Source: Micromonospora wenchangensis
GTDB taxonomy: Bacteria > Actinomycetota > Actinomycetes > Mycobacteriales > Micromonosporaceae
Assembly (NCBI RefSeq): GCF_002210435.1
Contig: NZ_MZMV01000006.1
Span: 117,533 to 181,532 of the forward strand
Reading direction: 5' to 3'
DNA: 64,000 bases
A model generated the notes under the pieces. It was not told the origin of the DNA. It did not search any database and was given only the letters and a program-made list of their open reading frames with translations. This document shows, piece after piece, positions 30,963 to 56,993 of this stretch. Each line of letters begins with the position of its first letter. The stretch's first letter is position 1. The translations under genes were made by a program, and so were the position numbers.

Positions 30963-30980
30963 CTTCCGACCGGACGGTAG
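30963..30980. promoter_or_regulatory. TetR-type operator G, upstream of the TetR gene
   Basis: CTTCCGACCGGACGGTAG matches the palindrome ATACCGACCGGTCGGTAT at 14 of 18 positions. It fills the 17-bp spacer between TTCGTT (30955-30960) and TAGCAT (30978-30983), with the same offset as the sites at 39779 and 39874. It implies that the TetR gene is autoregulated. Confidence 0.6.
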
Positions 30981-31016
30981 CATTGTCTGGCTGTATCGCG
31001 GACAGGGAGGCCATTG

Positions 31017-31652
31017 ATGGCGCGTGCGACGTCCCGCCCGGAGTCGACCCGACGCCGGCAACGCTGGCCCGACGGGTACGACCCGGAGAACACCCGCAAC
31101 TCGTTGATCACGAGTGCGTTGGGCCTGATCGAGCAACGGGGCTTCGACCGCACCTCGGTGCAGGAGATCGCCGACCAGGCGCAGCTCACCAAGGGTGCCT
31201 TCTACCACCACTTCGCCAGCAAGGACGACCTGCTGCGGCACATCCAGGAGGAGTACCTGGAGGCGCAGCTCGCCGCCATCCAGAAGATCGAGACCGACAG
31301 CGACGACCCGACCGTGCGGGTACGCGAGCTGATCCGGTTCAGCCTCACCAGCGTGGCCGAGTACCGGGCCCACGTGACGATCTTCTACCAGGAGCGGCGG
31401 TACCTCTCCGGTGACCTGTTCGCCGAGGTGACCCGCAAGCGGGGCCTGGTGGAGGCCGCGTTCGCCGGGATGATCGCCGACGGGGTCGCCCGGGGGGCGT
31501 TCCGCGCGGACGTCGACCCGCGCATCGCCACCTTCGGGCTGGTCGGCATGTGTGCCTGGGCGTACCAGTGGCTCAACGTCGGCGGACCGCTCAGCGTCGA
31601 CGAGGTGGCCCGCCAGTTCAGCGCGATGGTGCTGGAGGGCCTGACCGCCTGA
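31017..31652 (+). CDS. TetR/AcrR-family regulator, likely master of the downstream catabolic island
   Basis: The 211-aa protein has an N-terminal TetR helix-turn-helix (TSVQEIADQAQLTKGAFYHHFASKDDLL, about 46-73) and an all-helical ligand domain. The ATG at 31017 is preferred over a TTG one codon earlier, with GGGAGG 7 bp upstream. It stands at the left border of a 33-kb cluster of acyl-CoA genes. The same 18-bp palindrome occurs in its own promoter and in five further control regions up to 56993. An acyl-CoA inducer is likely. Confidence 0.85.
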   Translation: MARATSRPESTRRRQRWPDGYDPENTRNSLITSALGLIEQRGFDRTSVQEIADQAQLTKGAFYHHFASKDDLLRHIQEEYLEAQLAAIQKIETDSDDPTVRVRELIRFSLTSVAEYRAHVTIFYQERRYLSGDLFAEVTRKRGLVEAAFAGMIADGVARGAFRADVDPRIATFGLVGMCAWAYQWLNVGGPLSVDEVARQFSAMVLEGLTA

Positions 31653-31659
31653 GTCCCGC

Positions 31660-31675
31660 CGGGGCCCTCGCCCCG
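31660..31675. terminator. Short hairpin between convergent TetR and acyl-CoA dehydrogenase genes
   Basis: A CGGGGC-N4-GCCCCG hairpin (6-bp perfect stem) lies in the 27-bp gap between two converging stops. It may terminate both transcripts. Confidence 0.45.
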
Positions 31676-31679
31676 CCCG

Positions 31680-32828
31680 TCAGTCCTTGAGGAGTTGGCG
31701 GGCCATGACGATGCGTTGGACCTGGTTGGTGCCTTCGTAGATTTGGGTGATCTTGGCGTCGCGCATCATGCGTTCGACGGGGTAGTCGCGGGTGTAGCCG
31801 TAGCCGCCGAGGAGTTGGACGGCGTCGGTGGTGATGTCCATGGCGGCGTCGGAGGCGAAGCACTTGGCGGCGGCGCCGAAGTAGGTGAGGTCGGCGTCGC
31901 CGCGTTCGGACTTGCCGGCCGCGGTGTAGGTGAGCTGGCGGGCGGCTTCGAGTTTCATGCCCATGTCGGCGAGCATGAACTGGACGCCCTGGAATTCGGC
32001 GACGGGTTTGCCGAACTGTTGGCGTTCCTGGACGTAGCCCTTGGCGTAGTCGAGGGCGCCCTGGGCGATGCCGACGGCTTGGGCGGCGATGGTGACCCGG
32101 GTGTGGTCGAGGGTGCGCATCGCGGTGGCGAAGCCGGTCCCCGGCTCCCCGATGATCCGGTCGGCCGGAATCCGCACGTTGTCGAGGTACACCTCGCGGG
32201 TGGGGGAGCCTTTGATGCCGAGTTTCTTCTCGGGTGCGCCGAAGCTGACTCCGGGGTCGGACTTCTCGACGACGAAGGCGGAGATGCCGCGGGAGCGGGC
32301 GGTGGGGTCGGTGACGGCGAACACGGTGTAGTACTCGGAGACTCCGGCGTTGGTGATCCACCGTTTGACGCCGTTGAGGACCCAGTGGTCGCCGTCGCGG
32401 ACGGCCCGGGTGGTCATGGAGGCCGCGTCGCTGCCGGCCTCGGGTTCGGACAGGCAGTACGAGAACATCGCCTCACCCGCCGCCACCGGCGTCAGATAGC
32501 GCCGCTTCAACTCCTCCGACCCCGCCAGCAGCAACGGCATCGTGCCCAGCTTGTTGCCGGCGGGGATGAGGGCCGTCGAGGCGCAGGCACGGGCGACCTC
32601 CTCGATGACGATCGCGGTGGCCAGGGCGTCCGCGCCGGCCCCGCCGTACTCGACGGGGATGTGCGGGGCATGGAAGTCGGCGGCACGCAGCGCGTCGTAG
32701 CCGCGGCGGGGAAATTCGCCGGTCTCGTCGGCCTCGGCCGCGTGCGGGGCCACCTTGGCGGCACAGACCTCGCGGACGGCCTCGCGGACCGCCTCGTGCT
32801 CCTCGGGCAACCGGTACGCCTCGAACAC
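31680..32828 (-). CDS. Acyl-CoA dehydrogenase (short/medium-chain FadE type)
   Basis: The 382-aa flavoprotein has LSEPEAGSDAASM and the FAD/substrate loop WITNAG. The catalytic Glu lies in QIYEGTNQVQR near the C-terminus, as in short-chain and butyryl-CoA dehydrogenases. The GTG at 32828 is chosen because AGGAGG lies 6 bp upstream; the ATG at 32870 would place the start inside operator A. Codon use differs from the neighbours: AAA for Lys, CTC and C-ending codons over most of the gene, and G-ending codons around 32460-32560. It may be acquired or recombined. Confidence 0.88.
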   Translation of the reverse strand: MFEAYRLPEEHEAVREAVREVCAAKVAPHAAEADETGEFPRRGYDALRAADFHAPHIPVEYGGAGADALATAIVIEEVARACASTALIPAGNKLGTMPLLLAGSEELKRRYLTPVAAGEAMFSYCLSEPEAGSDAASMTTRAVRDGDHWVLNGVKRWITNAGVSEYYTVFAVTDPTARSRGISAFVVEKSDPGVSFGAPEKKLGIKGSPTREVYLDNVRIPADRIIGEPGTGFATAMRTLDHTRVTIAAQAVGIAQGALDYAKGYVQERQQFGKPVAEFQGVQFMLADMGMKLEAARQLTYTAAGKSERGDADLTYFGAAAKCFASDAAMDITTDAVQLLGGYGYTRDYPVERMMRDAKITQIYEGTNQVQRIVMARQLLKD

Positions 32829-32863
32829 CACAGACCTCCTCGCCGGAACCGCCGGCCAGCAAA

Positions 32864-32881
32864 ATACCATCCGGTCGGTAT
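32864..32881. promoter_or_regulatory. TetR-type operator A, for the acyl-CoA dehydrogenase gene
   Basis: ATACCATCCGGTCGGTAT matches the 18-bp palindrome at 16 of 18 positions. On the minus strand its end overlaps TATTTT (32866-32861), a fair -10 box, as at the other sites. It pairs with operator F 40 bp away in a divergent promoter region. Confidence 0.7.
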
Positions 32882-32893: not shown

Positions 32894-32922
32894 TTGAGTT
32901 GTCCGGGCCGGAGGTGTTAGAT
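32894..32922 (+). promoter_or_regulatory. Promoter of the SnoaL-nitroreductase operon (TTGAGT-N17-TTAGAT)
   Basis: TTGAGT (32894-32899) and TTAGAT (32917-32922) are 17 bp apart. Operator F begins at the last two bases of the -10, so a bound repressor would cover the start point. Confidence 0.55.
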
Positions 32923-32938
32923 ACCCACCAGTCGGAAT
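32921..32938. promoter_or_regulatory. TetR-type operator F, for the SnoaL-nitroreductase operon
   Basis: ATACCCACCAGTCGGAAT matches the palindrome at 15 of 18 positions and ends 12 bp before the ATG at 32951. It overlaps the transcription start region. Confidence 0.65.
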
Positions 32939-32950: not shown

Positions 32951-33922
32951 ATGACCCGCGCGGTCCGGGCAGGCATGGACTTCGTCTCCGCGCTCGACCG
33001 GGGCAGCCTCGGCGGTCTCGCCCGGTTGTGCGCCCCCGACGCGACCTGGTGGGTGGACACCGGCCCGGACCGTCGCGGCGGCGATCCGGATCTCGCGCCG
33101 CACGGCAGCGGACGCTTCCCCCTGCACGGCCTGATGCGGATGGACGACAAGCTGGCGCTGATGCGGTCCCTCGGCCCGCACGCGTTCCCCACCGGCTGCC
33201 GGCAGATCCCCCGCCGGATCGTCGCCGGGGACGACACCTGCGTCATCGAGGTCGAGGGATACGGCGTCCACGCCAGCGGACGCGAGTACGCCAACCGCTA
33301 CGGCTTCGTCGTCGACGTGGACCCGACCGGCGCGATCGTCGCCGTGCGGGAGTACCTCGACACCGCCCACGCGCAGCACGTCGTGGGCGACGACGCGCCC
33401 GTACCCCGCAGCAGCCTCGACGACCCCCCGCACCACGACCCGCCCGACCCGGTCGACGTGCCCCCGGCGCTGGCGACCGCGCTGGCGATGTGGCCGGCCC
33501 TCGCCCGGGGCGACCTCGACGCCTTCGGCGCGCTGTTCACCGCCGACGCCACCTGGTGGACCGACTCCGGCCGCCGCCGCGACCTCGGCCGGCACCACGG
33601 CCGGGGCGACCTCGACGCCAACGGGCCGTTGCACGGCCGGGTCGCGATGAGCGGGAAACTCGCCGCGATGCGGGCCCGACTGGCCGGCGGGACCTACGCG
33701 TCCCCCGGGATCGCGGTCACCGCCGACCGGTGGATCGTCGACGACACCCTGGTCGCCGTCGAGGCCCACGGACACGCCGTCCTCGGCGACGGTGCCCGCT
33801 ACCAGAACCGCTACCTCTGGATCGTCGACGTCCGACCCGGCGGCATCGCCGGGGTCCGCGAGTACTGCGACACCCTGCACGTCACCGACCTGCTGGGCGT
33901 CGCACCGGAGGCCGACCGATGA
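32951..33922 (+). CDS. Tandem SnoaL/NTF2-like domain protein
   Basis: The 323-aa protein carries two copies of an NTF2-like cone domain (about 1-140 and 175-320). Both have the ATWW(V/T)D(T/S)G motif, a GRxxxxxK(L)AxMR helix and a REYxDTxH end (REYLDTAHAQH, REYCDTLHVTD). Single SnoaL-like domains act as cyclases, isomerases or ketosteroid-isomerase-like enzymes. The tandem form suggests one chain forming an intramolecular dimer. The ATG at 32951 has GGGAGG upstream. It heads a six-gene operon. The reaction is unknown. Confidence 0.75.
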   Translation: MTRAVRAGMDFVSALDRGSLGGLARLCAPDATWWVDTGPDRRGGDPDLAPHGSGRFPLHGLMRMDDKLALMRSLGPHAFPTGCRQIPRRIVAGDDTCVIEVEGYGVHASGREYANRYGFVVDVDPTGAIVAVREYLDTAHAQHVVGDDAPVPRSSLDDPPHHDPPDPVDVPPALATALAMWPALARGDLDAFGALFTADATWWTDSGRRRDLGRHHGRGDLDANGPLHGRVAMSGKLAAMRARLAGGTYASPGIAVTADRWIVDDTLVAVEAHGHAVLGDGARYQNRYLWIVDVRPGGIAGVREYCDTLHVTDLLGVAPEADR

Positions 33923-34668
33923 CCCTGCCGTTCACCGACCTCAACCACGTGCTGACCACCACCCGGTCGGTCCGGCTCCGCCTCGACTACGACCGCCCGG
34001 TGCCCCTCGACCTCGTCGGCGAGTGCCTCCAACTCGCCGTCCAGGCGCCCACCGGCGGCGGCGCCGAGGACTGGCGCTGGCTCGTCGTCGGCGACCCGGC
34101 GCTCAAGGCCGAGCTGGCGACGCTCTACCACGCCGCCTACCGCACCCACGTGCACGAACCGCTGCACAGCGCGGCGGGCACCGGCAACGACCTGGTCCGG
34201 GGCCGCCTCGGCGGCGTCGACGCGGACGGCACGGTCAGCGCCCGCACCGCCCGTATCCTCGCCGGAGCCGAACACCTCGCGCAGCACATCGGGCGGGCCC
34301 CGTACCTGGTCATCCCGTGCGCCACCCGGCCCGACCCGACCACCGGCGGCCCCGGCACCAACTCCGCCCTCTACGGGTCGCTCTATCCGGCGATCTGGCA
34401 GTTCAACCTGGCGCTGCGGGCGCGCGGACTCGGCACCGTCATCACCACCCTGCACCTGCACCACGCCGCCGCCGTCGCCACGCTGCTCGGCATCCCCGAC
34501 GGCGCGGTGCAGATCACCATGCTGCCTGTCGCGTACACCCTCGGCACCGACTTCAGGGTCGCCGCCCGCCGACCCGTACGCAGCGTCAGCTACCTCGACC
34601 GGTGGGGAACCCCGTTGCCCTACCGGGACAAGCCCGTCGACCGCCTCACCGGAGAGGACCACCGATGA
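33919..34668 (+). CDS. Nitroreductase-family flavoprotein A
   Basis: The 249-aa protein has the nitroreductase fold (TTRSVRLRLDYDRPVPLDLVGECLQLAVQAPTGGGAEDWRWLVV at the N-terminus and GLGTVITTLHLHH, then LGIPDG near the end). These are FMN enzymes that reduce nitro groups, quinones or enones. It overlaps the SnoaL gene (ATGA) and is followed by a paralogue with 4-bp overlap. In this context enone or quinoid reduction is more likely than nitro reduction, but that is a guess. Confidence 0.8.
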   Translation: MTLPFTDLNHVLTTTRSVRLRLDYDRPVPLDLVGECLQLAVQAPTGGGAEDWRWLVVGDPALKAELATLYHAAYRTHVHEPLHSAAGTGNDLVRGRLGGVDADGTVSARTARILAGAEHLAQHIGRAPYLVIPCATRPDPTTGGPGTNSALYGSLYPAIWQFNLALRARGLGTVITTLHLHHAAAVATLLGIPDGAVQITMLPVAYTLGTDFRVAARRPVRSVSYLDRWGTPLPYRDKPVDRLTGEDHR

Positions 34669-35375
34669 CCGGCGCAGTGATCACCGACATCGACGAGGTA
34701 CTGACCACCACCCGCGCGGTGCGCCACCGGCTGGACTTCGACCGGCCCGTCGGCCGCGCCGTCGTCGAGGAGTGCCTGCGCCTCGCCCAACAGGCACCGA
34801 TGGGCTCCAACCTGGAGGACTGGCGGATCGTCGCGGTCGACGACCCGGCACTCAAGCGGGAACTGTCCACCCTGTACACCGAGATCTGGCACGACACCGT
34901 CGCCCGTCCGCTGGCCGACGGCGAGGCCGCCACCACCACCCGGTTGTCGCCCGGCGTCCGGGCCGACCCGCAGGCCCAGGCCCGCCAGCAGCGGGTCCTC
35001 GCCGCCGTCAAGCACCTCGTCGACCACCTGGCGCAGGTGCCCGTCCTGGTCGTGCTGTGCAGCACCAAACCGGTCCCGCAACGGCCCGTCGGCGGCACCG
35101 CCTCCGGCTACTACGGGTCGATCTTCCCGTTCGCCTGGTCGTTCCAGCTCGCCCTGCGCTCCCGGGGCCTCGGCTCGGTGCTGGCCACCGCCCTGGCCCA
35201 CCGGGCCACCCGGGTACGCGAGGTGCTCGGCCTGCCCGACGACTGGCGACCGGTCACCCTCGTCCCGGTCGCCTACACCCGGGGCCTGGACTTCCGCCCC
35301 GCCGCCCGCGCCGACCTCGCCGACGTGGCGTTCTGGAACGGGCCCACCGAGCCGGCCGGATCGGCGGCCCGGTGA
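34665..35375 (+). CDS. Nitroreductase-family flavoprotein B
   Basis: The 236-aa paralogue of the preceding protein shares the DxxxVLTTTRxVRxRLDxDRPV start, the APxGxxxEDWR flavin-binding segment and the YYGSIFPFAWSFQLALRSRGLGSVL core. A and B could form a heterodimer or act on two related intermediates. It overlaps genes on both sides by 4 bp. Confidence 0.8.
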   Translation: MTGAVITDIDEVLTTTRAVRHRLDFDRPVGRAVVEECLRLAQQAPMGSNLEDWRIVAVDDPALKRELSTLYTEIWHDTVARPLADGEAATTTRLSPGVRADPQAQARQQRVLAAVKHLVDHLAQVPVLVVLCSTKPVPQRPVGGTASGYYGSIFPFAWSFQLALRSRGLGSVLATALAHRATRVREVLGLPDDWRPVTLVPVAYTRGLDFRPAARADLADVAFWNGPTEPAGSAAR

Positions 35376-36328
35376 GAGCCGCCCACGTCCGCACCCCGAG
35401 CGCCGCCGACCCGGTCGGCGCGCTGCACGTCGGCGACCTGGCCGCCCCGACGGCACCCCCCGGCTGGGTCGACGTCGACGTGCGGGCCGGCGCGCTGAAC
35501 ATGCACGACCTGTGGACGCTGCGCGGCGTCGGCACCACCGGGCACGACGGACCCCGGGTCATCGGCAGCGACGCGGCAGGTGTCGCCGCAGGCCGCGAGG
35601 TGATCGTCTACCCGGTGCTGCCCACCGCGCCCGACGGCCGGACCGTCCCGCACGCCACCCTGCTACCCGACGCCGGCCACGGCGTGCTCGCCGAACGGAT
35701 CGTCGTCCCGGCGGCCCACCTCGTCGCCAAACCCGCCGGACTGAGCTGGGCCGAGGCCGCCAGCCTCCCGACCGCCTGGCTCACCGCGTACCGGATGCTG
35801 TTCACCCGGGCGGCGGTCGGTCCCGGGCGGACCGTGCTGGTGCAGGGCGCGGGCGGCGGGGTGGCGACCGCCGCGATCAGCCTCGCCGTGGCCGCCGGCG
35901 CCACCGTCATGGTCACCTCCCGGTCGGCGGCCAAACGGGAACGGGCCCTCGCCCTCGGTGCGGCCGTCGCCCTGGACAGTGGCGCGCGGACCCCGGAACT
36001 CGCCGACATCGTGGTGGAGACCGTCGGCGCGGCCACCTTCGACCACTCGACCCGCTGCACCCGGGCCGGCGGCACCATCGTGGTGTGCGGCGGCACCAGC
36101 GGCTTCACCGCCGAGCTGGACCTGCCGCGGCTGTTCGCCCGGGAGATCAGCGTGCACGGCGCGACCATGGGCACCCTCGACGAGTTCGTGGCGCTGGTCG
36201 GGTTCGTCGACACCCACCGTATCCGGCCGGTCGTCGACAGCGTCGTCGACCTCGCCGACATCCGCACCCAGGCGGCCCGGATGCTGGCCGGCACCGCGTT
36301 CGGCAAGCTCTGCGTGAGCCTGACGTGA
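35372..36328 (+). CDS. Zinc-less MDR-type dehydrogenase (quinone-oxidoreductase-like)
   Basis: The 318-aa medium-chain dehydrogenase has a GroES-like start (ALNMHDLWTLRGV, GSDAAGV) and the NADPH-binding VLVQGAGGGVATAAI motif (about 152-166). The structural-zinc cysteine cluster is absent, as in quinone or enoyl reductases. GAKLxx-type C-terminal residues (GTAFGKLCVSLT) match this family. It would reduce an enone or enoyl-CoA intermediate. The GTG start overlaps the previous stop. Confidence 0.8.
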   Translation: MRAAHVRTPSAADPVGALHVGDLAAPTAPPGWVDVDVRAGALNMHDLWTLRGVGTTGHDGPRVIGSDAAGVAAGREVIVYPVLPTAPDGRTVPHATLLPDAGHGVLAERIVVPAAHLVAKPAGLSWAEAASLPTAWLTAYRMLFTRAAVGPGRTVLVQGAGGGVATAAISLAVAAGATVMVTSRSAAKRERALALGAAVALDSGARTPELADIVVETVGAATFDHSTRCTRAGGTIVVCGGTSGFTAELDLPRLFAREISVHGATMGTLDEFVALVGFVDTHRIRPVVDSVVDLADIRTQAARMLAGTAFGKLCVSLT

Positions 36329-37146
36329 CCTCCGTGGTGCTGACCCGGCGCGGGGCCGCCCTCTGGGCGCGCATCGACCGGCCCGGGTCCGGCAACGCCT
36401 GCGACAGCACGGTGCTGACCGGTCTCGAACGGTGGCTGGCCGGCGCGGCCGACCCGGCGGTACGGGTGCTCGTGCTCACCGGCACCGGCCGCAGCTTCTG
36501 CGCCGGAGCCGACCTCGCCGAGGCCACCGGTCTGCTCGGCGACCTGCCCGCGCTGCTGGCCCACCTCGACCGGGGCCGCCGTCTCGTCCGCGCCCTCCGG
36601 GCCGCCCCGGTGCCCACCGTCGCCGCGGTCAACGGGGCGGCCTTCGGCGGCGGCCTCGAACTGCTGCTCGGCTGCGACATCGCGGTCGCCGCCGACAGCG
36701 CCCGGATCGGCGACCGGCACCTCGCCGCCGGTCAGGTCCCCGGCTGGGGGGCAAGCGTCCTGCTGCCCCGCGCCGTCGGGCCGGCGCTCGCCCGCCGCCT
36801 GCTGCTCACGGGGGAGACCTGGTCGGCCGAGGAATCCGAGCGTCGGGGACTGGTCAGCGCCGCCGTCGCCGACGACCGGCTCGTCGGGCACGTCGACGCG
36901 CTGGCCGACGCGGTCGCGGCCCGCGACCCGGCGGCGGTCCGCCGGATGCTCACCGTCGCCCGCCCGCCGGTGGCCGAGGCGGACTGGGACCGGGAGTGGG
37001 AGGCCCTCACCGCGCACGTCACGGCCCAGGCGACGGCCCGTGCCGCAGCCGCGTCCCCGCCCGACCGGCACACCCCCGGGGCACCCACCCGACCCGACAC
37101 CCTGGACCCACCACCCGGAACGGAGCACCCCCCATGCGCACCATGA
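36325..37146 (+). CDS. Enoyl-CoA hydratase/isomerase family protein 1
   Basis: The 273-aa crotonase-fold protein has the oxyanion segments FCAGADLAEA and AAFGGGLELLLGCDIAVA. The usual second catalytic glutamate region reads DRHLAAGQVPGWGASVLLPRAVG, so one of the two hydratase Glu residues may be missing and another crotonase reaction is possible. The tail of about 25 residues is rich in Pro and Thr. Its end overlaps the start of the MaoC gene by 13 bp. Confidence 0.82.
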   Translation: MTSVVLTRRGAALWARIDRPGSGNACDSTVLTGLERWLAGAADPAVRVLVLTGTGRSFCAGADLAEATGLLGDLPALLAHLDRGRRLVRALRAAPVPTVAAVNGAAFGGGLELLLGCDIAVAADSARIGDRHLAAGQVPGWGASVLLPRAVGPALARRLLLTGETWSAEESERRGLVSAAVADDRLVGHVDALADAVAARDPAAVRRMLTVARPPVAEADWDREWEALTAHVTAQATARAAAASPPDRHTPGAPTRPDTLDPPPGTEHPPCAP

Positions 37147-37622
37147 GACGGACCACCGTCGACACCCCTTCCGACCTGCTGGGGCTGGTCGGCACGGAAC
37201 TGGGCGTCAGCGCGCCGCAGGTGGTGACCCAGCGGCAGGTCGACCAGTTCGCCGACGTCACCGGGGACCACCAGTGGATCCACGTCGACGTCGAACGGGC
37301 CCGGTCCGGGCCGTTCGGCGGCACCGTCGTGCACGGGTTCCTCACCCTGGCCCTCGTCCCCCGGCTGCTCGCCGACATCCTGGAGGTGCGGACCTTCTCG
37401 ATGGGCGTCAACTACGGCCTCGACCGGGTCCGGTTCGTCCGGCCGCTGCCGCCGGGGGTCGAGATCCAGGGCACCGCGACCCTCGTCGCGGCCACCGCGA
37501 TCACCGCGCCCGGCCCGCAGGCCACCCCCGGGGTGCAGGCCACGGCGTCGGTGGCGGTGGAGTTCGCCGAGTCGTCGCAGCCCTGCTGCGTGGCGGAGAT
37601 CGTGTTCCGCTACTACGCCTGA
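37134..37622 (+). CDS. MaoC-like enoyl-CoA hydratase 2
   Basis: The 162-aa hot-dog hydratase has DVTGDHQWIHVD (catalytic Asp and His) and GGTVVHGFLTLAL. It is similar to the MaoC protein at 5881-6333, sharing the VNYGLDRVRF segment, which suggests duplication within the locus. The ATG at 37134 has GGAG 8 bp upstream; a second ATG at 37143 is possible. It is the last gene of the operator-F operon. Confidence 0.82.
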   Translation: MRTMRRTTVDTPSDLLGLVGTELGVSAPQVVTQRQVDQFADVTGDHQWIHVDVERARSGPFGGTVVHGFLTLALVPRLLADILEVRTFSMGVNYGLDRVRFVRPLPPGVEIQGTATLVAATAITAPGPQATPGVQATASVAVEFAESSQPCCVAEIVFRYYA

Positions 37623-37707: not shown

Positions 37708-38220
37708 TCACTCGGTCGTCCGCGACGGGGTGACGAACCGGCCCCGGTAGAACGACAGCGCCGGCACGTCGGTCGGCTTCAGGTGGACCCGGTCGACGTC
37801 GATCAGGACGATCACGTGGTCGCCGCTGGTGATCACCTCGTCGCGCCGTCCGGCCAGGATCGCCGGGGTGTCGGGCAGCAGCGGGACGCCGTCGGGGCCG
37901 GGCACCCAGGACACCCCGTCGAGCCGTTGCTCCCCGGACAGCCCGGAGGTGGCGAACCGCCGGGCCACGTCCTCCTGGTCCTGGCTGAGGATGTGGACGG
38001 CGATCCGGTCGGCGTCCATCAGCACCGGGAAGCTCGACGAGAAGCTGGTGACGCAGAACAGCACCTTCGCCGGGTGCAGCGAGACCGAGGTGAACGAGTT
38101 CACGGTCAGCGCGGCGACCGCGCCCCCGGCGGTCACCGCCGTCACCGCCGTCACGCCGGTGGGGAAGTGCCCGCACACCTGGCGGAACTCGGCGGAGTCG
38201 AACAGGGGCTCGGCCATCAT
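37708..38220 (-). CDS. Flavin reductase (DIM6/NTAB, HpaC-like)
   Basis: The 170-aa protein has the flavin-reductase-like split barrel (FPTGVTAVTAVTAGGAVAALTVNSFTSVSLHPAKVLFC). It supplies FMNH2 or FADH2 to two-component monooxygenases. The four luciferase-like monooxygenases at 57010-63692 are natural clients. The ATG at 38220 forms an ATGA overlap with the VOC gene. Confidence 0.86.
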   Translation of the reverse strand: MMAEPLFDSAEFRQVCGHFPTGVTAVTAVTAGGAVAALTVNSFTSVSLHPAKVLFCVTSFSSSFPVLMDADRIAVHILSQDQEDVARRFATSGLSGEQRLDGVSWVPGPDGVPLLPDTPAILAGRRDEVITSGDHVIVLIDVDRVHLKPTDVPALSFYRGRFVTPSRTTE

Positions 38221-48485: not shown

Positions 48486-48980
48486 ATGCCGGTCAGCGAA
48501 GTGCACCACGTGGCGATGACCGTCTCGGACGTCGACCGCGCCGCGGACTTCTACGAGCGGGCCCTGGGCTACCGCCGGACGCTGCGGACCGACGTCGGCG
48601 GGCCGGGGATCGAGGTGTCGCTGGGGTTGCCCGCCGGCACCACCGGCCGGGTCCAGTACCTCCAGGGGCCCAGCCGGGTCGGCCAGCTCGAACTCATCGA
48701 GTGGAACGGCGTGAAGACCCGCACCGCCACCGCCGGTCACCTGGAGCTGGGCACCTTCCTGCTCAGCTTCGAGGTGCCCCTGGACGAGCTGGACGACCTG
48801 CACCGGCGGCTGACCGAGCTGGGCGCGCAGTGCCTGTCCGCGCCGAACCGGGTGCTGCTGGACAACTACGGGTACATCACCGCGTTCGCCGCCCGGGACC
48901 TCGACGGCAACCTGCTGGAGTTCGTGTCGTTGCCGTCCCGGGAGGAGATCCTGGCCCGGCGGCGGGGGAGCGGCGACTGA
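48486..48980 (+). CDS. Single-domain VOC protein (methylmalonyl-CoA epimerase-like)
   Basis: The 164-aa vicinal-oxygen-chelate protein starts EVHHVAMTVSDVDRAADFYERALGY and ends ARDLDGNLLEFVSLP, where the early His and the late Glu are the metal ligands. Members include epimerases, glyoxalases and dioxygenases. CAGGAAGGC precedes the ATG. Its stop overlaps the next ATG by one base. Confidence 0.78.
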   Translation: MPVSEVHHVAMTVSDVDRAADFYERALGYRRTLRTDVGGPGIEVSLGLPAGTTGRVQYLQGPSRVGQLELIEWNGVKTRTATAGHLELGTFLLSFEVPLDELDDLHRRLTELGAQCLSAPNRVLLDNYGYITAFAARDLDGNLLEFVSLPSREEILARRRGSGD

Positions 48981-50503
48981 TGGGCGGCAGCAACTTCACC
49001 GAGACGCTGCGCCGGCAGGCGTTGCGCCGCGCCGACGCCGAGGCCCTGGTCGACGGGGCGGCCCGCTGGACGTACGCGGAACTCGACGCCGACGTGGACC
49101 GGCACGCCGCGGCCCTGCGCGACGCCGGCATCGCCGACGGCGACCTGGTCGGGGTGCTCGGGCGCAACACCGCCACCTACGTCGTCGAGCTACTGGCGCT
49201 GAGCCGGCTCGGCGCGGTCTCGGTGCCGCTGAACTGGCGGCTGCACGCCAACGAGCAGGCGTACGTCATCGACCAGGCGGGCGTCACCGGACTGCTCTAC
49301 GACGACGACTTCGCCGCCGACGCCGCCCGGCTGGCGGCCACGACCGGGCTGCGCACGCTGGTCGCCAACGGCGACACGGTCGTCGGTGCCGCGCGACGGC
49401 TGGCCGACCTGCTCGCCGGGCAGCCTCCGGGCGTGCGGGTCGCCGACGCCGACAAGGGCCCCGCCGACGTGCACCGGCTGCTCTACACCTCGGGCACCAC
49501 GGCCCGCCCCAAGGGGGTGGTGCACACCTGCGGGAACCTCACCGCGAACCACTTCGCGCAGGTCCTCGAACTGGAGTTGACCGCCGCCGACCGGATCCTC
49601 GTCTCCGCGCCGCTGTTCCACGTCAGCGGGCTGGAGGCGCCGGGCCTGGCGACGTTCGTGGCCGGCGCGACGATGGTGCTCACCCCGACGTTCAAGCCGG
49701 CCGACATCGCCCGGATCGCCGCGCAGGAGCGGATCACCGGCATGGTGCTGGCCGCCCAGATCCTGTTCGGACTGCTCGACCTGGACGACCCGCCGGATCT
49801 CGGAAAGCTGCGTTACCTGCTGTTCGCCGGGGTCGCGCCGAGCGTGCGGCAGGAGGTCAAGCGGCGGCTGCCGCACGTGCGGCTGATCGACACGTTCGGC
49901 ATGACCGAGCTGTGCAACGGGGTCTGCTACCTCGACGCCGCCCACGAGCAGAGCAAGCTCGGTGCGCTCGGCGCGCCGTTCCCCGGGGTGCAGATCCGGA
50001 TCGTCGACGAGCACTTCCGGCCGGTCGGCCCGGACGTCGAGGGGGAGATCGTCGTCCGGGGGGAGAAGGTGTCGCCCGGCTACTGGAACGACGACGAGGC
50101 CAACCGGCGCAGCCGGCGCGACGGCTGGTTCCGCACCGGCGATGTGGGCCGGATCGACGCCGACGGCTACCTGTGGTTCGTCGACCGCCGGGCCGACCTG
50201 ATCAAGTCCGGTGGGGAGAACATCGCCAGCGCCGAGATCGAACGGGTCCTCGCCCAGCATCCCGACGTCGCCGAGGTCGCCGTGATCGGGGTGCCGGACC
50301 CGCAGTGGGACGAGGTGCCGAAGGCGTTCGTCATCCTCCGCGACGGCGCGACCGGCACCGCCGAGGACCTGCGCGCGCACTGCCGGGCCGAACTGGCCCG
50401 CTACAAGGTCCCCCGGTACGTGCAGCTGGTGACGTCGTTGCCGCGCAACGACTCCGGCAAGGTGCTGAAGAAGGCGCTGCGCGAGGCGGCGGTGTCGGGG
50501 TGA
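48980..50503 (+). CDS. AMP-dependent acyl-CoA ligase 1 of the island
   Basis: The 507-aa ANL ligase has YTSGTTARPKG, FGMTELCNGV, the hinge GDVGRIDADGYLWFVDRR and catalytic Lys in NDSGK. It is adjacent to a second ligase with 4-bp overlap. The two share a PADxHR/LQRIVYTSGTT layout and a CYLDAAHEQSK-like segment, which suggests tandem duplication. The substrate is unknown. Confidence 0.84.
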   Translation: MGGSNFTETLRRQALRRADAEALVDGAARWTYAELDADVDRHAAALRDAGIADGDLVGVLGRNTATYVVELLALSRLGAVSVPLNWRLHANEQAYVIDQAGVTGLLYDDDFAADAARLAATTGLRTLVANGDTVVGAARRLADLLAGQPPGVRVADADKGPADVHRLLYTSGTTARPKGVVHTCGNLTANHFAQVLELELTAADRILVSAPLFHVSGLEAPGLATFVAGATMVLTPTFKPADIARIAAQERITGMVLAAQILFGLLDLDDPPDLGKLRYLLFAGVAPSVRQEVKRRLPHVRLIDTFGMTELCNGVCYLDAAHEQSKLGALGAPFPGVQIRIVDEHFRPVGPDVEGEIVVRGEKVSPGYWNDDEANRRSRRDGWFRTGDVGRIDADGYLWFVDRRADLIKSGGENIASAEIERVLAQHPDVAEVAVIGVPDPQWDEVPKAFVILRDGATGTAEDLRAHCRAELARYKVPRYVQLVTSLPRNDSGKVLKKALREAAVSG

Positions 50504-52053
50504 GCACCGCGAACCTCGCCGCCATGCTGGCCGGCAACGCCCGCCGGTTCGCCGACGCCGACGCGCTGGTCTTCGGCGACCGCCGGTGGACCCACCGGCA
50601 GCTCGACGACGACGTCAACGCGCTGGCCGCCGGGCTGGTCGCCGAGGGGGTACGCCGGGACAGCCGGGTGGCGGTCGTCGCGGACAACGTCCCCGAGTTC
50701 CTCCTGCTCTGTCTGGCGCTGGCGAAACTCGGCGCGGTCGTGGTCCCGCTGAACTACCGGTTGACGGCCGGGGAGCTGGCCCGGTTGCTGGCGCACGCGC
50801 GGGTCGGGGCGGTCGCCACCGTGCCGGAGTTCGCCCCGCTCACCACCGCCGCCCTCGCCGACCTGCCGCAGGTACGCCGGTTCGCGCTGGAACCGGTCGA
50901 CGACGGCTGGACCGACGTGCGGGCGCTCGTCGCGGCGCACCGGGGCGCGCGGGTCGCCGACGCCGACCTCGACGACGCGGCCCTGCAACGGATCGTCTAC
51001 ACCTCCGGCACCACCAGCCTGCCCAAGGGGGTGCTGCTCACCCACGGCAACGTGAACCGGAACATGCACGCCCAGATCGTCGAGCTGGGCCTGCGGCCGA
51101 CCGACCGGATCCTCAACGTCGCGCCGCTCTACCACGTCGGTGGCACCGACCTGCCCGGCTTCGGCATCTGGCACGTCGGGGGTGCCATGGTGCTGCACCG
51201 CCGGTTCGTGCCGGCGGCCGTGCTGCGGGCGATCGAGACGGAACGGATCACCGGCATGGTGGTCGCGGCGACCATGCTGGACATGGTCCGCCGCGAGCCC
51301 ACCGCCGCCGGCACCGACCTGTCGTCGGTCCGCTGGCTGATCTTCTCGCAGGTCACCTCGGCGCTGTTCGGGGTGGCCCGGGGGCTGTTCCCGAACGCCC
51401 GGCTGATCGAGGGGTACGGCCTGACCGAGACGTGCAGCGGGCTGACCTACCTCGACGCCGCCCACCAGGAGTCCAAGCAGGGGTCGGTGGGGCTGCCGGT
51501 GCCGTGGGTCCAGGTCCGGGTGGTCGACCCGGACGGTGCGGACGTGCCGGTCGGCGCGCACGGCGAGGTGGTCGCGCGCGGGCCGAAGGTCAGCCCCGGT
51601 TACCTCGACGATCCGGCGGCGACGGCCGCCGCGTTCCGGGACGGGTGGTTCCACACCGGCGACATCGGCTGCTTCGACGCCGACGGCTACCTCTACATCC
51701 GCGACCGGCTCAAGGACATGATCCGCAGCGGCGGGGAGAACATGTCAAGCGCCGAGATCGAGAACGTGCTGGCCGACCATCCGCTGGTGCTGGCCGCGTC
51801 GGTGGTGGCGGCCCCGCACCCGACGTGGCAGGAGGTGCCGGCCGCGTTCGTGGTGGCCCGTCCAGGGTTGACGCCCGAGGTGCTGATCGCGCACGCCCGG
51901 CAGCGGCTCGGCCGGTTCAAGGTGCCCCGGGAGGTCTACCTGGTGCCGGAGTTCCCCACCAACCCGTCGGGCAAGGTGCTCAAGCGGACCCTGCGGGAGC
52001 TGCGCCCGACCCTGCGCCCGGACTGGACGTACGACGACGCCCGGCGCGACTGA
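50500..52053 (+). CDS. AMP-dependent acyl-CoA ligase 2 of the island
   Basis: The 517-aa ligase has YTSGTTSLPKG, GYGLTETCSGLTYLDAAHQESKQ, the hinge GDIGCFDADGYLYIRDRLKDM and catalytic Lys in NPSGK. The GTG start overlaps the preceding ligase. Two consecutive ligases may activate two carboxylic acids formed at different stages. A 19-bp hairpin follows the stop. Confidence 0.85.
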   Translation: MSTANLAAMLAGNARRFADADALVFGDRRWTHRQLDDDVNALAAGLVAEGVRRDSRVAVVADNVPEFLLLCLALAKLGAVVVPLNYRLTAGELARLLAHARVGAVATVPEFAPLTTAALADLPQVRRFALEPVDDGWTDVRALVAAHRGARVADADLDDAALQRIVYTSGTTSLPKGVLLTHGNVNRNMHAQIVELGLRPTDRILNVAPLYHVGGTDLPGFGIWHVGGAMVLHRRFVPAAVLRAIETERITGMVVAATMLDMVRREPTAAGTDLSSVRWLIFSQVTSALFGVARGLFPNARLIEGYGLTETCSGLTYLDAAHQESKQGSVGLPVPWVQVRVVDPDGADVPVGAHGEVVARGPKVSPGYLDDPAATAAAFRDGWFHTGDIGCFDADGYLYIRDRLKDMIRSGGENMSSAEIENVLADHPLVLAASVVAAPHPTWQEVPAAFVVARPGLTPEVLIAHARQRLGRFKVPREVYLVPEFPTNPSGKVLKRTLRELRPTLRPDWTYDDARRD

Positions 52054-52108: not shown

Positions 52109-53089
52109 TCAGCTGTCGGCGGCGGCGTGGCGGAGCAGGGCGAGGGCGTGCACCAGGGCGAACCGTCGGGTGCCCCGGCCCAGCTCGTCCCACGGCTTCT
52201 TCCAGGTCATCCGCCGGGCGACGTCCCACGCGGTGTCGCCGTCGCGGGCCAGCCCCCGGACCGTCTCGACCTCGTCGCGGTGGAACGCGGCGAGCGCCTG
52301 CGCGCGGGCGGCGACGTCCCGGTAGGGGAACTGGTGGGCGGGGCAGGCGATGGCGGCCCCGAGGTCGCCGATGCGGGCCAGCGTGCCGAACAGGTCGGCG
52401 GCCGGGTCGTCGTCGGGGCGGCTGACGATGGCGAGCTGGGTGGGCCCCTCGGCCATCATCGTGTCACCGGTGAACACCAGTCCCCGGGTGTCGACGTAGA
52501 CGGTGTGGCCGTAGGTGTGCCCGGGGGCGGGCAGGGCGCGGACGGTCACGTCGCCGAAGCGGAACTCGGTGTCGTGGTCCACGGCCACGTCGAGCCGCAG
52601 GTCCTCCCGGTGCACGGCGACGGCGACCGCGTCGGCGTACATGGCGGCGACGACGTCGGGCGGGGCGCCGGTCAGTTCGAGCGCGGCGCGTACCTGCTGG
52701 AGGAAGGTGCCGCGTCGGCGGTGCATGGTGGCGAAGTCGTCGGGCGCGCCCATCACCACCCGCGCGCCGGAGGCGGCGCGTACCCGGTCGGCGAAGCCGA
52801 CGTGGTCGGGGTGGTTGTGGGTGAGCAGGACCGCTGCGATGGTGTCGACCCGCTGCCCGATGGCCGCCACCGACTGTTGGAACGACGTCCAGCAGCTCGG
52901 GTGGTCGTAGCCGGCGTCGACGAGGACCGGGCCCTCGTCGGTGGTGATCAGGAAGACGGTGATGGACCGCAGGGCGCTGCCGTGCAGGGGGACCGGGATC
53001 GCCCAGACACCGTCGACGACCTGCGCGGGGACCGGCACCTGACGGGCCCGCCAACTGGCGGCGTGGGCGTCGCTCACAGGTATGGACAT
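52109..53089 (-). CDS. Metallo-beta-lactamase-fold hydrolase
   Basis: The 326-aa protein has THNHPDH (H91, H93, D95, H96) plus later GHTYGHTVYVD and FTGDTMM, which complete a two-metal site. An alpha-helical C-terminal region is typical of glyoxalase-II-like, thioesterase-like members. It may hydrolyse a CoA thioester or lactone in the pathway. Operator D lies upstream and a -10 box (TATGTT, 53125-53120) overlaps it. Confidence 0.8.
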   Translation of the reverse strand: MSIPVSDAHAASWRARQVPVPAQVVDGVWAIPVPLHGSALRSITVFLITTDEGPVLVDAGYDHPSCWTSFQQSVAAIGQRVDTIAAVLLTHNHPDHVGFADRVRAASGARVVMGAPDDFATMHRRRGTFLQQVRAALELTGAPPDVVAAMYADAVAVAVHREDLRLDVAVDHDTEFRFGDVTVRALPAPGHTYGHTVYVDTRGLVFTGDTMMAEGPTQLAIVSRPDDDPAADLFGTLARIGDLGAAIACPAHQFPYRDVAARAQALAAFHRDEVETVRGLARDGDTAWDVARRMTWKKPWDELGRGTRRFALVHALALLRHAAADS

Positions 53090-53122: not shown

Positions 53123-53140
53123 ATACCGGATGGTCGGAAT
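53123..53140. promoter_or_regulatory. TetR-type operator D, between the MBL and ligase genes
   Basis: ATACCGGATGGTCGGAAT matches the palindrome at 14 of 18 positions. On the minus strand it sits between TTGAGC (53149-53144) and TATGTT (53125-53120), overlapping the first three bases of the -10. It can control both the MBL gene and the rightward operon that begins at 53158. Confidence 0.65.
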
Positions 53141-53157: not shown

Positions 53158-54705
53158 ATGAGCCAGGAGCGGACCGGGTTCCGGCTGTGGGCAGCCGCGG
53201 AACCGGAGCTGTGCGCGATCGTGACCGCCGACGACCGGCGGATCTCCTACGGTGACCTGTTCGCCGAGGTGAACCGGATCTCGCACGGCCTGCGTACGCA
53301 CGCGGGCCTGCGGCCCGGTGACACCGTCGCGGCGGTCATGACCAACAGCCCCGGCCTGGTCGCGCTCTATCTCGCGGCCATGCAGTCCGGGCTCTACCTG
53401 GTCACCCTCAACTACCACCTGACCGCCCCCGAGGTCGGCTACATCCTCGCCGACAGCGAGGCCCGGGTGGTGGTCGGCTCCGCCCGGGTCGAGGACGTCG
53501 TGCTGGACGCCGCCGCGGCGGTGCCCGGCATCCAGGTCTTCGTCGACGGCACGCCCCGCACGGACCGGGCCCGACCGCTCGCGGCGCTCACCGCCGACAT
53601 GCCCGCCACCAGCCCGGCGGACACCCCGGCCGGCTCGCTGATGATGTACACCTCCGGCACCACCGGCCGGCCCAAGGGGGTCAAGCGCCCGCTCAGCGGC
53701 GTCGACGCCGACACCGGCGCGCTGACCTACGTCTGGCTGTTCCGGGAGTTCGGGATGGAGCGGGAGGCGTTCGGGTCCTGGCTGGTGTCGGCCCCGATGT
53801 ACCACTCGGCCAACATCACCCCGGCGATGGGCGCGCTGCACGCCGGCGGCACGATGGTGCTGATGGACGGCTGGACGCCGGAGGGCTTCCTGCACCGGGT
53901 CCAGGAACGCCGGGTCACCGGCACCAGCATGGTGCCGACCCACTTCTACCGGCTGCTGCAACTGCCTGAGGCGGTCCGTGACCGCTACGACCTGTCCTCG
54001 CTGCGCTACGTCCTGCACGGCGCGGCGCCCTGCCCGCGCGAGGTCAAGCAGCGCATCCTCGACTGGTTCGGCCCGGTGGTCTACGAGTACTACGGCTCCA
54101 CCGAGGTCGGCACCACCGTCGCCCGTCCCCACGAGTGGCTGGCCCACCCGGGCACGGTCGGCCGGCCGGCCTCCATCTCCACCCTCCGCATCCTCGACGA
54201 GCTGGGCAACGAGGTGCCCGTCGGGCAGACCGGCATCGTCTACATGCGCCAGGGCGACGACCGGGTCGAATACCACAACGACCCCGGCAAGACCGACGGC
54301 GCGCGGCGCGACGGCCTGATGACCGTCTGGGACGTCGGCCACGTCGACGCCGACGGCTTCCTCTACATCACCGGCCGCGCGGCCGAGCTGATCCTGGTCG
54401 GCGGGGTCAACGTCTACCCGGCCGAGATCGAGGCGGCGCTGATCGGCCACGACTGGGTCGCCGACGTCGGCGTGGTCGGGGTGCCCGACCCGGAGTTCGG
54501 CGAGGTGCCCCAGGCGCACGTCGTGCTCACCGACACCGCGCCCGACCCGGACACGGCCGTCGCGCAGCTGCGCCGGTACCTCACCGAGCGGCTGGCCAAG
54601 CCGAAGCGCCCGCAGTCCTACGTCGTGCGCGACGCGCTGCCCCGCGACCCGAACGGCAAGCTCTACAAGGCCCGGCTCGTGCCCGCCGAGGAGGCCAGCG
54701 CGTGA
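53158..54705 (+). CDS. AMP-dependent acyl-CoA ligase 3 of the island
   Basis: The 515-aa FadD-like ligase has YTSGTTGRPKGVKRPL, YEYYGSTEVG, the GHVDADGFLYITGR hinge and catalytic Lys in DPNGK. The ATG at 53158 has AAGGAG 4 bp upstream. It is the first gene of an operon with two acyl-CoA dehydrogenase genes. Ligases with YYGSTE often act on medium-chain or alicyclic acids. Confidence 0.85.
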   Translation: MSQERTGFRLWAAAEPELCAIVTADDRRISYGDLFAEVNRISHGLRTHAGLRPGDTVAAVMTNSPGLVALYLAAMQSGLYLVTLNYHLTAPEVGYILADSEARVVVGSARVEDVVLDAAAAVPGIQVFVDGTPRTDRARPLAALTADMPATSPADTPAGSLMMYTSGTTGRPKGVKRPLSGVDADTGALTYVWLFREFGMEREAFGSWLVSAPMYHSANITPAMGALHAGGTMVLMDGWTPEGFLHRVQERRVTGTSMVPTHFYRLLQLPEAVRDRYDLSSLRYVLHGAAPCPREVKQRILDWFGPVVYEYYGSTEVGTTVARPHEWLAHPGTVGRPASISTLRILDELGNEVPVGQTGIVYMRQGDDRVEYHNDPGKTDGARRDGLMTVWDVGHVDADGFLYITGRAAELILVGGVNVYPAEIEAALIGHDWVADVGVVGVPDPEFGEVPQAHVVLTDTAPDPDTAVAQLRRYLTERLAKPKRPQSYVVRDALPRDPNGKLYKARLVPAEEASA

Positions 54706-54738
54706 CCGGCGACACCGACGACCCACAGGGGGGTGGGC

Positions 54739-55890
54739 ATGGACTTCGCTGACAGCGACACCGACCTGGCGTTCCGGCACGAGGTCGGCGGGTGGCTCGA
54801 CAAGGCGCTGGCCGACGTGCCCGACCAGGAGGAGCTGACCCAGGACGAGCGGGAGCACTGGTCCCGGGTGTGGCAGGACCGGCTCTGCGCCGGCAACTGG
54901 GCCGGACTGTCCTGGCCCACGGCGCACGGCGGCCGGGGGATGGACGCGCTGGCCCAGGCCGTCTTCAACGAGGAGGCCGCGGTACGCGGCGCGCCGTACC
55001 CGCTCAACGGGGTGGGCATGATGCTGGCCGGGCCGACGATCATCGCGCACGGCACCGACGCCCAGCAGGCCCGGCACCTGCCCGGCATCCTGCGCGGCGA
55101 CGAGTACTGGTGCCAGGGGTTCAGCGAACCCGGCTCCGGGTCGGACCTGGCGAGCCTGACCACGGCGGCGACCCGGGTCGACGGGGGCTGGCGGATCAAC
55201 GGGGCCAAGATCTGGACGTCCAACGCGCACAACGCCTCGCGCTGCCTGCTGCTGGCGCGTACCGACGCCGCCGCGCCGAAGCACGAGGGGATCACCTACT
55301 TCCTCGCCCCGATGGACGGGTTCACCGTCCGGTCGCTGGTGATGATCAACGGGGACACCGAGTTCAACGAGATGTTCCTCGACGACGTGTTCGTCGCCGA
55401 CGACGACGTGCTCGGCGGGGTCGGCAACGGCTGGACCGTCGCGCTCACCACGCTCGCGTTCGAGCGCGGCAGCATGGCGTTGAACCTGTGGGTCTGGGCC
55501 CGGCAGGCGGTCGACCGGCTGATCGACGTCGCCGTCGAGCGGGGCGTCGCCGACGACAGCGCGTTCGTCGACGCGGTGGGCGCGTTGCAGTGCGACGCCG
55601 AGGCGGTCCGGATCGGCTCGATGCGGATGCTCGGCGAGAGCCGGGCCGGCGGGGTGCCGGGGCCGGAGACCTCGGCGCTCAAGAGCCTGTGGGCCCGGGT
55701 GGTGCAGAACGCCAACCGGCTCGCCGTGCAGCTCGACGAGGCCGGCGGGGTGCTGGTCGACGGCGACGGCGCCGCCGCCCGGATGCGTCGCTACCTGCGG
55801 GCCCGCGCCCACACCATCGAGGGCGGCACGGAGGAAGTCCAGAAGTCGATTCTCGCGGAGCGGGTCCTGCGCCTGCCCCGCTCCCGCTGA
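54739..55890 (+). CDS. Acyl-CoA dehydrogenase, subunit 1 of a probable heteromer
   Basis: The 383-aa protein has QGFSEPGSGSDLASL, WTSNAH and a C-terminal TIEGGTEEVQKSILAERVL, where the Glu can be the catalytic base. This type, followed directly by a shorter partner, resembles the alpha2-beta2 dehydrogenases of steroid and cyclic-substrate degradation. The ATG at 54739 follows an AGGGGGG ribosome site; a GTG two codons earlier is possible. Confidence 0.83.
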   Translation: MDFADSDTDLAFRHEVGGWLDKALADVPDQEELTQDEREHWSRVWQDRLCAGNWAGLSWPTAHGGRGMDALAQAVFNEEAAVRGAPYPLNGVGMMLAGPTIIAHGTDAQQARHLPGILRGDEYWCQGFSEPGSGSDLASLTTAATRVDGGWRINGAKIWTSNAHNASRCLLLARTDAAAPKHEGITYFLAPMDGFTVRSLVMINGDTEFNEMFLDDVFVADDDVLGGVGNGWTVALTTLAFERGSMALNLWVWARQAVDRLIDVAVERGVADDSAFVDAVGALQCDAEAVRIGSMRMLGESRAGGVPGPETSALKSLWARVVQNANRLAVQLDEAGGVLVDGDGAAARMRRYLRARAHTIEGGTEEVQKSILAERVLRLPRSR

Positions 55891-55903
55891 GCGAGGTGGT
55901 CCG

Positions 55904-56935
55904 GTGCGCGCGACATTCACCCAGGAACAGCAGGACATCGGCCGGACCGTGGGCGCGCTCGCGGACGCCGACCGGGGCACCGCCCGCGCGGCGTGGTCGG
56001 GCGGGTGGCGGGCCCCGGCGGGGGACGGGCCGCTGCTGCGTGACTTCGGGCTGCTCGGGGTGCCCGAGCCGGCCGGCGGCATCGGGTCGAGCCTGATCGA
56101 CCTGCTGGTCGCCGTCGAGGCGCTCGGCGGGCGGTTGGTGCCCAGCCGGTTCCCGGCGCACGCGGCGGCCGTGCAGCTGCTCTGCGGCGACGAGCGGTCC
56201 GGCGGGCCGCTGCCCGACGAGGTGCTCGACGGTCGCCGGGTGCTCACCGCGGCGGTCGACGTGCCGGGCAGTTCCGGCTGGGCCGACGCGGTGCCGGTGG
56301 ACCCGCTGGTCCGCACCCTGGTGCCGTATGCGGCGCAGGCCGACGGCGTGGTCGCGCTCGGCCCGGCCGGGGTCTGGTTCGCCGACCCGGTCCGGGTCAC
56401 CGAGCGGCAGTCGCTGGACCCGTCGGTGCCGTTGGCGGACCTGACGGTGGCCGCGCCCGAGCGGCCCCGCCCGGCCGGCACCGGGCCGTTGCGGGCGGCG
56501 CTGGTGGTGGCGGCGGAGCTGTGCGGGGTGGCCCAGGGCGCGATCGACCTGGCCGCCGAGCAGGCCCGCACGCGCCGCCAGTTCGGCCGGGTGATCGGGT
56601 CGTTCCAGGGGGTCGCGTTCCCGCTGGCCGAGGCGGCCACGGCGCGCAAGGCGGCGTGGGACCTGACCCTGTACGCGGCGTGGGCGGTCGACACCGGACA
56701 CCCGGACGCCGGGGTCCAGGTGCACGCGGCGAAGGCGGCGGCCGGGCAGGCGGCGGTGTTCGCGGCCGAGCGGTGCATCCAGGTGCACGGCGGGATGGGC
56801 ATCACGATGGAGGCGGACCCGCACCTGTTCCTGCGCCGCGCGTTCGTGCTCGACGCCCGCTGCGGGCGGGGGTCGTGGCACCGGCGGCGGGCCGGGGAGC
56901 TGCGCATCCGGGCACGTCGGGCCGTGCGGGGCTGA
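55904..56935 (+). CDS. Acyl-CoA dehydrogenase, subunit 2 of a probable heteromer
   Basis: The 343-aa shorter paralogue keeps the C-terminal helical domain (ARTRRQFGRVIGSFQGVAFPLAEAATARKAAWD, VHGGMGITMEADPHLFLRRA). It has a poorly conserved middle region, and I do not see the standard SEPxAGSD FAD motif. This pattern fits a non-catalytic or FAD-sharing subunit that pairs with the previous gene product. It starts at GTG 13 bp after that gene. Confidence 0.78.
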   Translation: MRATFTQEQQDIGRTVGALADADRGTARAAWSGGWRAPAGDGPLLRDFGLLGVPEPAGGIGSSLIDLLVAVEALGGRLVPSRFPAHAAAVQLLCGDERSGGPLPDEVLDGRRVLTAAVDVPGSSGWADAVPVDPLVRTLVPYAAQADGVVALGPAGVWFADPVRVTERQSLDPSVPLADLTVAAPERPRPAGTGPLRAALVVAAELCGVAQGAIDLAAEQARTRRQFGRVIGSFQGVAFPLAEAATARKAAWDLTLYAAWAVDTGHPDAGVQVHAAKAAAGQAAVFAAERCIQVHGGMGITMEADPHLFLRRAFVLDARCGRGSWHRRRAGELRIRARRAVRG

Positions 56936-56975
56936 CCTGCGGAAGTCTTGCCGGGCACCAGCCCGGAGCAGTAAC

Positions 56976-56993
56976 ATACCGGCTGGTCGGAAT
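56976..56993. promoter_or_regulatory. TetR-type operator E, before the monooxygenase operon
   Basis: ATACCGGCTGGTCGGAAT matches the palindrome at 15 of 18 positions and lies 16 bp before the GTG at 57010. Possible -10 boxes are TAACAT (56972-56977, with TTGCCG 18 bp upstream) or AATAAA (56991-56996). Confidence 0.68.

Follow-up and report, generated by a model that had tools for sequence, protein, structure and literature searches.

A 64,000-nucleotide stretch of Micromonospora wenchangensis contig NZ_MZMV01000006.1 (the window) carries a catabolic island with a TetR-family regulator gene (tetR) and seven copies of an 18-base-pair (bp) palindrome, which are very probably the operators of that regulator. 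Genes are codon-model calls, families come from NCBIfam and Pfam, and transcription units are predicted from gene spacing and strand. The units and the candidate operators S1 to S7 are as follows.

31017..31652, plus strand: TetR-family regulator of 211 residues, with Pfam TetR_N and TetR_C_24 and recognition helix LTKGAFYHHF
31680..32831, minus strand: acyl-coenzyme A (acyl-CoA) dehydrogenase (ACAD), from profile matches
32951..37622, plus strand: predicted six-gene operon (SnoaL-like protein, two nitroreductase-family proteins, MDR reductase, enoyl-CoA hydratase, MaoC)
37708..39769, minus strand: predicted three-gene operon (enoyl-CoA hydratase ECH2, VOC protein, flavin reductase)
39958..52053, plus strand: predicted eleven-gene operon (SBP_bac_5 ATP-binding cassette (ABC) importer, HMG-CoA-synthase-like protein with ChsH2-type domains, thiolase, SDR, VOC, two acyl-CoA ligases)
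52109..53038, minus strand: MBL-fold hydrolase
53158..56935, plus strand: acyl-CoA ligase and two acyl-CoA dehydrogenases
57010..64000, plus strand: predicted seven-gene operon (four luciferase-like monooxygenases (LLM), acyl-CoA ligase, enoyl-CoA hydratase ECH3, VOC protein, cut)
30963..30980, plus strand: candidate operator S1, before tetR; the -10 TAGCAT overlaps its end
32864..32881, minus strand: candidate operator S2, overlapping the predicted -10 TATTTT of the ACAD gene
32921..32938, plus strand: candidate operator S3, over the end of the predicted -10 TTAGAT (TTGAGT-17-TTAGAT) of the SnoaL operon
39779..39796, minus strand: candidate operator S4, between the predicted -35 and -10 (TTGTGT-17-TATGAT) of the ECH2 operon
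39874..39891, plus strand: candidate operator S5, between the predicted -35 and -10 (TTGACT-17-TACTTT) of the ABC transporter operon
53123..53140, no strand assigned: candidate operator S6, between the divergent MBL gene (minus, TTGAGC-18-TATGTT) and acyl-CoA ligase gene (plus, TGGACA-17-TACTGT)
56976..56993, plus strand: candidate operator S7, over the end of the predicted -10 TAACAT (TTGCCG-18-TAACAT) of the LLM operon

These units hold 33 genes: one each for tetR, ACAD and MBL, three each in the ECH2 and ligase-ACAD operons, six in the SnoaL operon, seven in the LLM operon and eleven in the ABC operon. They have eight predicted promoters; an initial annotation of this DNA had grouped about 30 genes under one switch. 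In total, the island encodes four acyl-CoA ligases, four luciferase-like monooxygenases and three each of acyl-CoA dehydrogenases, enoyl-CoA hydratases and VOC proteins. The window and contig C6 both stop at 64000 inside a VOC gene (63689), and the right border of the island is absent from the assembly. No substrate hint emerges: ECH3 and one LLM enzyme of the four have general matches in the PDB, and the names of ECH3 homologues (best 120 of 201) are generic.

The 18-mers at 30963, 32864, 32921, 39779, 39874, 53123 and 56976 resemble ATACCGACCGGTCGGTAT at 14, 16, 15, 16, 15, 14 and 15 of 18 positions, respectively, a recount that bears out the 14 to 16 matches first annotated. Their dyad symmetry is imperfect (5 to 7 of 9 positions). 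A direct search for ATACCGACCGGTCGGTAT with up to three mismatches recovers five of the seven, against a mean of 0.01 in 100 shuffles. With a symmetric matrix built from all seven, the sites score 20.0 to 27.4 bits and the best other window position 13.4; when each site is scored with a matrix from the other six, it ranks above all non-site positions of the window. As had been claimed, all seven are wholly intergenic, and the distances to their neighbouring genes range from 9 to 161 bp; this status depends on start choices (an in-frame ATG at 32870, for instance, would extend a gene into the site at 32864). Wholly intergenic 18-mers make up 2.1% of those in the island (29956-63692), giving a chance of about 2e-12 for seven out of seven on the codon-model gene calls used here.

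The sites also show recurrent positions relative to predicted promoters, whose boxes are consensus matches rather than mapped starts (counts of aligned loci below include the window). A -10-like box takes its first three bases from the site end at 30963 and 39874 on the plus strand, and at 39779, 32864 and 53123 on the minus strand. This element, in the form TANNNT, is retained before tetR at S1 (11/11 loci), before the SBP_bac_5 gene at S5 (14/14), and on the minus strand before ECH2 at S4 (14/14) and ACAD at S2 (8/8); the minus-strand MBL -10 at S6, TATGTT, is kept in 5/5 loci and is paired with TTGAGC at 18 bp in the window. The overlap first noted at 32864 and 53123 is thereby confirmed, on the minus strand. 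TTGACT stands 17 bp upstream of the -10 at S5 in 14/14 loci. The initial annotation had also placed the sites at 30963, 39779 and 39874 two bp after a -35 box, with a -10 box 17 bp away: the shared -10 bases stand at all three (on the minus strand at 39779), and the -35 box fails at 30963, where TTCGTT is poor and unconserved.

The single fixed geometry that had been proposed holds at five of the eight predicted promoters, where the site occupies the -35/-10 spacer. At S3 and S7 the site begins within the -10 and continues downstream; the equivalent of S7 in Conexibacter reads TTGACA-17-TAACAT. On its plus side, S6 lies just downstream of the ligase pair TGGACA-17-TACTGT, at 11 bp (6 bp in Conexibacter). 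The S3 pair is unrecognisable in locus L074, and some S3 loci offer a higher-scoring alternative pair. The ECH2 start codon stands 6 bp beyond the -10 TATGAT (39769-39781, minus strand) in 11 of the 14 loci and 7 bp beyond it in the other three, and a leaderless transcript is therefore predicted.

Comparison with 60 relatives, 36 of the same genus, ties the sites to the regulator gene. Scoring of up to 50 candidates in each genome finds a TetR orthologue (98, 98 and 90% identity) in three of the 36 same-genus genomes, G012, G008 and G006, and all seven sites are kept in all three; G032 and G035 have TetR homologues only at 33 to 34%. Both sites are kept even in G012 (L064), where five genes of the six-gene SnoaL operon are without a match. 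A search for a related pattern with up to two mismatches gives 21, 17, 15 and 19 strand-hits in the four genomes with the orthologue (that of the window included), and 1 to 8 (mean 5.2) in the 33 same-genus genomes without it. Mean pairwise identity reaches 0.93 to 0.99 in operator columns, versus 0.42 to 0.68 in the flanks, for S1, S4, S5, S6 and S7 (11, 14, 14, 5 and 5 loci). S1 precedes tetR in 11/11 close loci, with an operator identity of 0.96 versus 0.45-0.48 in its flanks.

The association extends beyond the genus. A protein-based scan of named genomes, of which the best 80 loci were kept and their 10-kb flanks mapped, yields TetR proteins with 86 to 96% identity in Micromonospora, Virgisporangium and Dactylosporangium, 51 to 58% in Nocardioides, Actinomadura and Thermomonospora, and lower values in the remaining loci. 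The interval from 350 bp before the tetR match to 60 bp into it contains a site of at least 18 bits in 36/80 loci, versus 21/1240 control windows taken elsewhere in the same loci, other island sites included. In Nocardioides, Actinomadura and Conexibacter the island genes are reordered and the sites still lie between or before the blocks; in Conexibacter (L087) they precede the ligase-ACAD, LLM1-LLM2, ligase-LLM3, ECH3-LLM4 and SBP blocks. Much of the island is also found on a linear plasmid of Streptomyces cathayae (L155, NZ_CP121683.1, 45000-94900), near IS3/IS6 transposase genes. Its TetR is 53% identical to that of the window, and all seven of its sites of at least 15 bits fall outside annotated genes, beside gene starts (the gene table being incomplete).

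The site co-occurs with one recognition helix. The motif KGAFYHHF occurs in 80/80 loci, a figure largely selected, as one of the six peptide search patterns demanded it. A contrast without helix selection used 46 homologues (18 rows from relatives plus 28 further loci; the loci represent 30 of many matches) and about 1.5 kb on each side. A site of at least 16 bits lies nearby in six of seven homologues with the TKGAF helix, three of these six being close orthologues, and in none of 18 with the KstR2-type helix LSGSLYHHF.

Within its own genome, the pattern scores best in the island. The scan, a pattern search with up to three mismatches followed by matrix scoring (sites with more mismatches would be missed), gives 62 strand-hits at 51 distinct places for ATACCGACCGGTCGGTAT, versus 16 for the reversed pattern. 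The six best of the 51 places are island sites, not the many equally good matches in unrelated genes that would have spoken against the initial annotation. Two places, C22:36285 (21.2 bits) and C7:106514 (20.7), both read as intergenic, score above S1 (20.0), and C6:60983 (19.4) comes just below. Among 16 of the 44 non-island places that were inspected, ten lie within called genes and six outside (rough gene calls).

The 211-residue protein matches TetR_N with 62.8 bits (cut-off 24) and TetR_C_24 with 102.3 bits (cut-off 26.4), and is the single TetR_N match of the window, at 31017-31652, among the scored candidates, in agreement with the annotated position of the only TetR gene at the left border. 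Its AlphaFold model comprises nine helices and no strands (pLDDT 84.6). Judged from sequence and model, it has the traits of the family: an N-terminal helix-turn-helix, an all-helical C-terminal ligand/dimer domain, and palindromic sites at its own and at target predicted promoters. KstR2, PfmR and AibR, the last of which we take to be a Myxococcus protein, are among the ten best PDB rows by E-value for this model. The best fold match is KstR2 of Mycobacterium tuberculosis (PDB 4w97, by title a ketosteroid/cholesterol regulator; TM-score 0.82), whose helix reads ILSGSLYHHF instead of LTKGAFYHHF. PfmR (PDB 3vpr) shares the fold (TM-score 0.81, 29% identity) and is matched in sequence with an E-value of 1.9e-19, whereas its helix is LSKAALYHHF. 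AibR, solved with isovaleryl-CoA and with operator DNA (PDB 5k7z, 5k7h), is a fold match at 26% identity and serves as the model for a CoA-ester inducer.

Neither a paper on this regulon nor such a gene cluster turned up in searches of an open-access library. Two known systems have related operators. PaaR, the TetR-family regulator of the phenylacetate regulon of Burkholderia cenocepacia, depends for repression on the repeat ACCGACCGGTCGGT between predicted -35 and -10 boxes (PMC2770484); according to a review, gel shifts show PaaR bound to ACCGACCGGTCGGT, and the CoA ester of phenylacetate releases the protein (PMC9493321). The core of the seven-site consensus is this same PaaR operator, although none of the window sites reproduces it perfectly, and PaaR, too, controls several scattered promoters. 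In contrast, the outer AT..AT of the 18-mer falls outside the 15-bp PaaR repeat as quoted, and the likeness to PaaR is drawn from the operators. Furthermore, PaaR is described as controlling paa genes, whereas no ring-epoxidase (paaABCE-type) gene is among the best 25 NCBIfam rows shown (E<=0.001) for 29 island proteins, the last four genes being covered by Pfam only. PfmR (TTHB023) of Thermus thermophilus has the consensus TACCGACCGNTNGGTN, with sites overlapping core promoters, and is said to regulate phenylacetate/fatty-acid genes (PMC7022988). The window consensus overlaps TACCGACCGNTNGGTN and its sites also lie at predicted core promoters; the gene content of the PfmR regulon differs.

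The most probable interpretation, one that we hold with considerable confidence from sequence comparison, is that the seven palindromes are operators of the TetR encoded at 31017-31652, which would repress its own gene and 32 neighbours at eight predicted promoters until a CoA thioester releases it. A single conserved regulon linked to the tetR gene is supported by the retention of all seven sites in three orthologue genomes, by an excess of pattern hits that within the genus is confined to genomes with the orthologue, by sites that accompany rearranged blocks, and by the co-occurrence of helix and site. The protein would bind the sites as a dimer and block RNA polymerase at the spacer, at the -10 end or just downstream, and tetR is likely autoregulated through S1. 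The inducer may be an acyl-CoA thioester, presumably an intermediate of the pathway, by analogy with the fold neighbours KstR2, PfmR and AibR and with PaaR. Gene names suggest that the enzymes could degrade a CoA-activated, possibly alicyclic or terpenoid/steroid-like acid imported by the SBP_bac_5 ABC transporter. The system adds a new, well-supported example to a familiar type of bacterial switch.

A different regulator, encoded elsewhere, could own the sites and leave the local TetR a bystander. The genome offers candidates, with at least 62 TetR_N matches over cut-off (63 rows; 150 of 228 candidates scored), the pattern hit C6:60983 has a second TetR gene about 1.5 kb away, and similar palindromes occur in genomes without the orthologue. 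This is nevertheless improbable: the helix TKGAFYHHF is found in the TetR of the window alone among 20 distinct TetR genes of this genome whose helix was read, the pattern excess within the genus tracks the presence of a window-type tetR, and a site precedes tetR in every close locus. It is about equally unlikely that the protein is an activator or dual regulator rather than a simple repressor, as the name of the NCBIfam FasR family, matched weakly (44 bits versus a cut-off of 330), might suggest. S3, S7 and the plus side of S6 lie outside the spacer, as an activator might have it, but the site falls between -35 and -10 at the other five promoters, and over or downstream of the -10 at these three, where a block is expected; PaaR and PfmR, the proteins with the nearest operators, both repress. 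That the repeats are chance or structural elements, such as terminator-like palindromes with no regulator, is hardly credible. Their imperfect dyads and the occurrence of such a sequence within a longer inverted repeat at C22:36285 are outweighed by the shuffle expectation, the conservation of the sites and their link to the tetR gene.

Several observations weigh against TetR being the repressor of all these units through these sites. S1, the site before tetR itself, scores lowest among the seven and below two places outside the island, and follows a -35 that matches the consensus at 2 of 6 positions. No upstream site of at least 18 bits is found in 44 of the 80 homologue loci. The seven loci L079-L085 (Nocardioides, Actinomadura, Thermomonospora) have no site directly before tetR, and autoregulation there could therefore act at most via an operon. 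In the helix contrast, L156 has the TKGAF helix yet no site within about 1.5 kb, and three of 21 homologues with other helices (L051, L052, L058) do have one. The same-genus genome G010, without the orthologue, contains the near-perfect palindromes ATACCGACTGGTCGGTAT and ATACCGTCCGGTCGGTAT (C333:33446 and C287:4130), and outside the genus G040, G056 and G043, without a close orthologue, give 18, 15 and 13 hits; TetR homologues stand at about 30% in G040 and G043, and none reaches 1e-20 in G056. The operator is therefore not private to this TetR.

There is also a wider, tentative proposal, which may well prove wrong: the helix TKGAFYHHF and the operator ATACCGACCGGTCGGTAT could form a frozen module, spread over Actinomycetota, Chloroflexota, Spirochaetota and Pseudomonadota while ligand pocket and pathway changed, and here wiring a horizontally moving, unnamed catabolic pathway whose operon order was rebuilt and whose switch was kept. 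If so, the operator would be readable from the helix alone. By tying together about 33 genes, spread over several predicted operons on the two strands, the regulon singles them out as one predicted pathway, a grouping that gene order would not reveal by itself. Helix plus operator provide a direct search key for finding that pathway in further phyla and on plasmids, and the regulon makes a testable case for predicting operators from the recognition helices of TetR proteins.

Further places of the genome were considered as members of the regulon and rejected. C53:22786 and C6:71866 lie within called genes. C7:106514 occupies a gap between two minus-strand genes, and its 18-mer recurs in G004, G006 and G017, with no TetR orthologue found in G004 and G017. 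C22:36285 (L012) lies within a larger inverted repeat, in a region that has no called gene. C6:60983 (L005) belongs to a longer palindrome, AACTGTACCGGCTGGTCGGTACAGTT, directly before the start of a gene that reads by eye as efflux-type, and the TetR gene near it has the helix SKGGLIYHF; it is likely a look-alike operator of a different regulator. A second regulator with the same site is possible in L051 and L052, same-genus TetR homologues with the helix TKGALYHWF that have near-perfect operator copies 1.26 kb upstream.

Besides the regulatory elements, two genomes of the genus have genes for F420-dependent NADP oxidoreductases (PF03807) after the LLM operon (L065:11413-12033 and L069:6706-7326), a neighbourhood that hints that some LLM enzymes may use F420. 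On the S. cathayae plasmid, an annotated NADPH-dependent F420 reductase gene adjoins the LLM operon.

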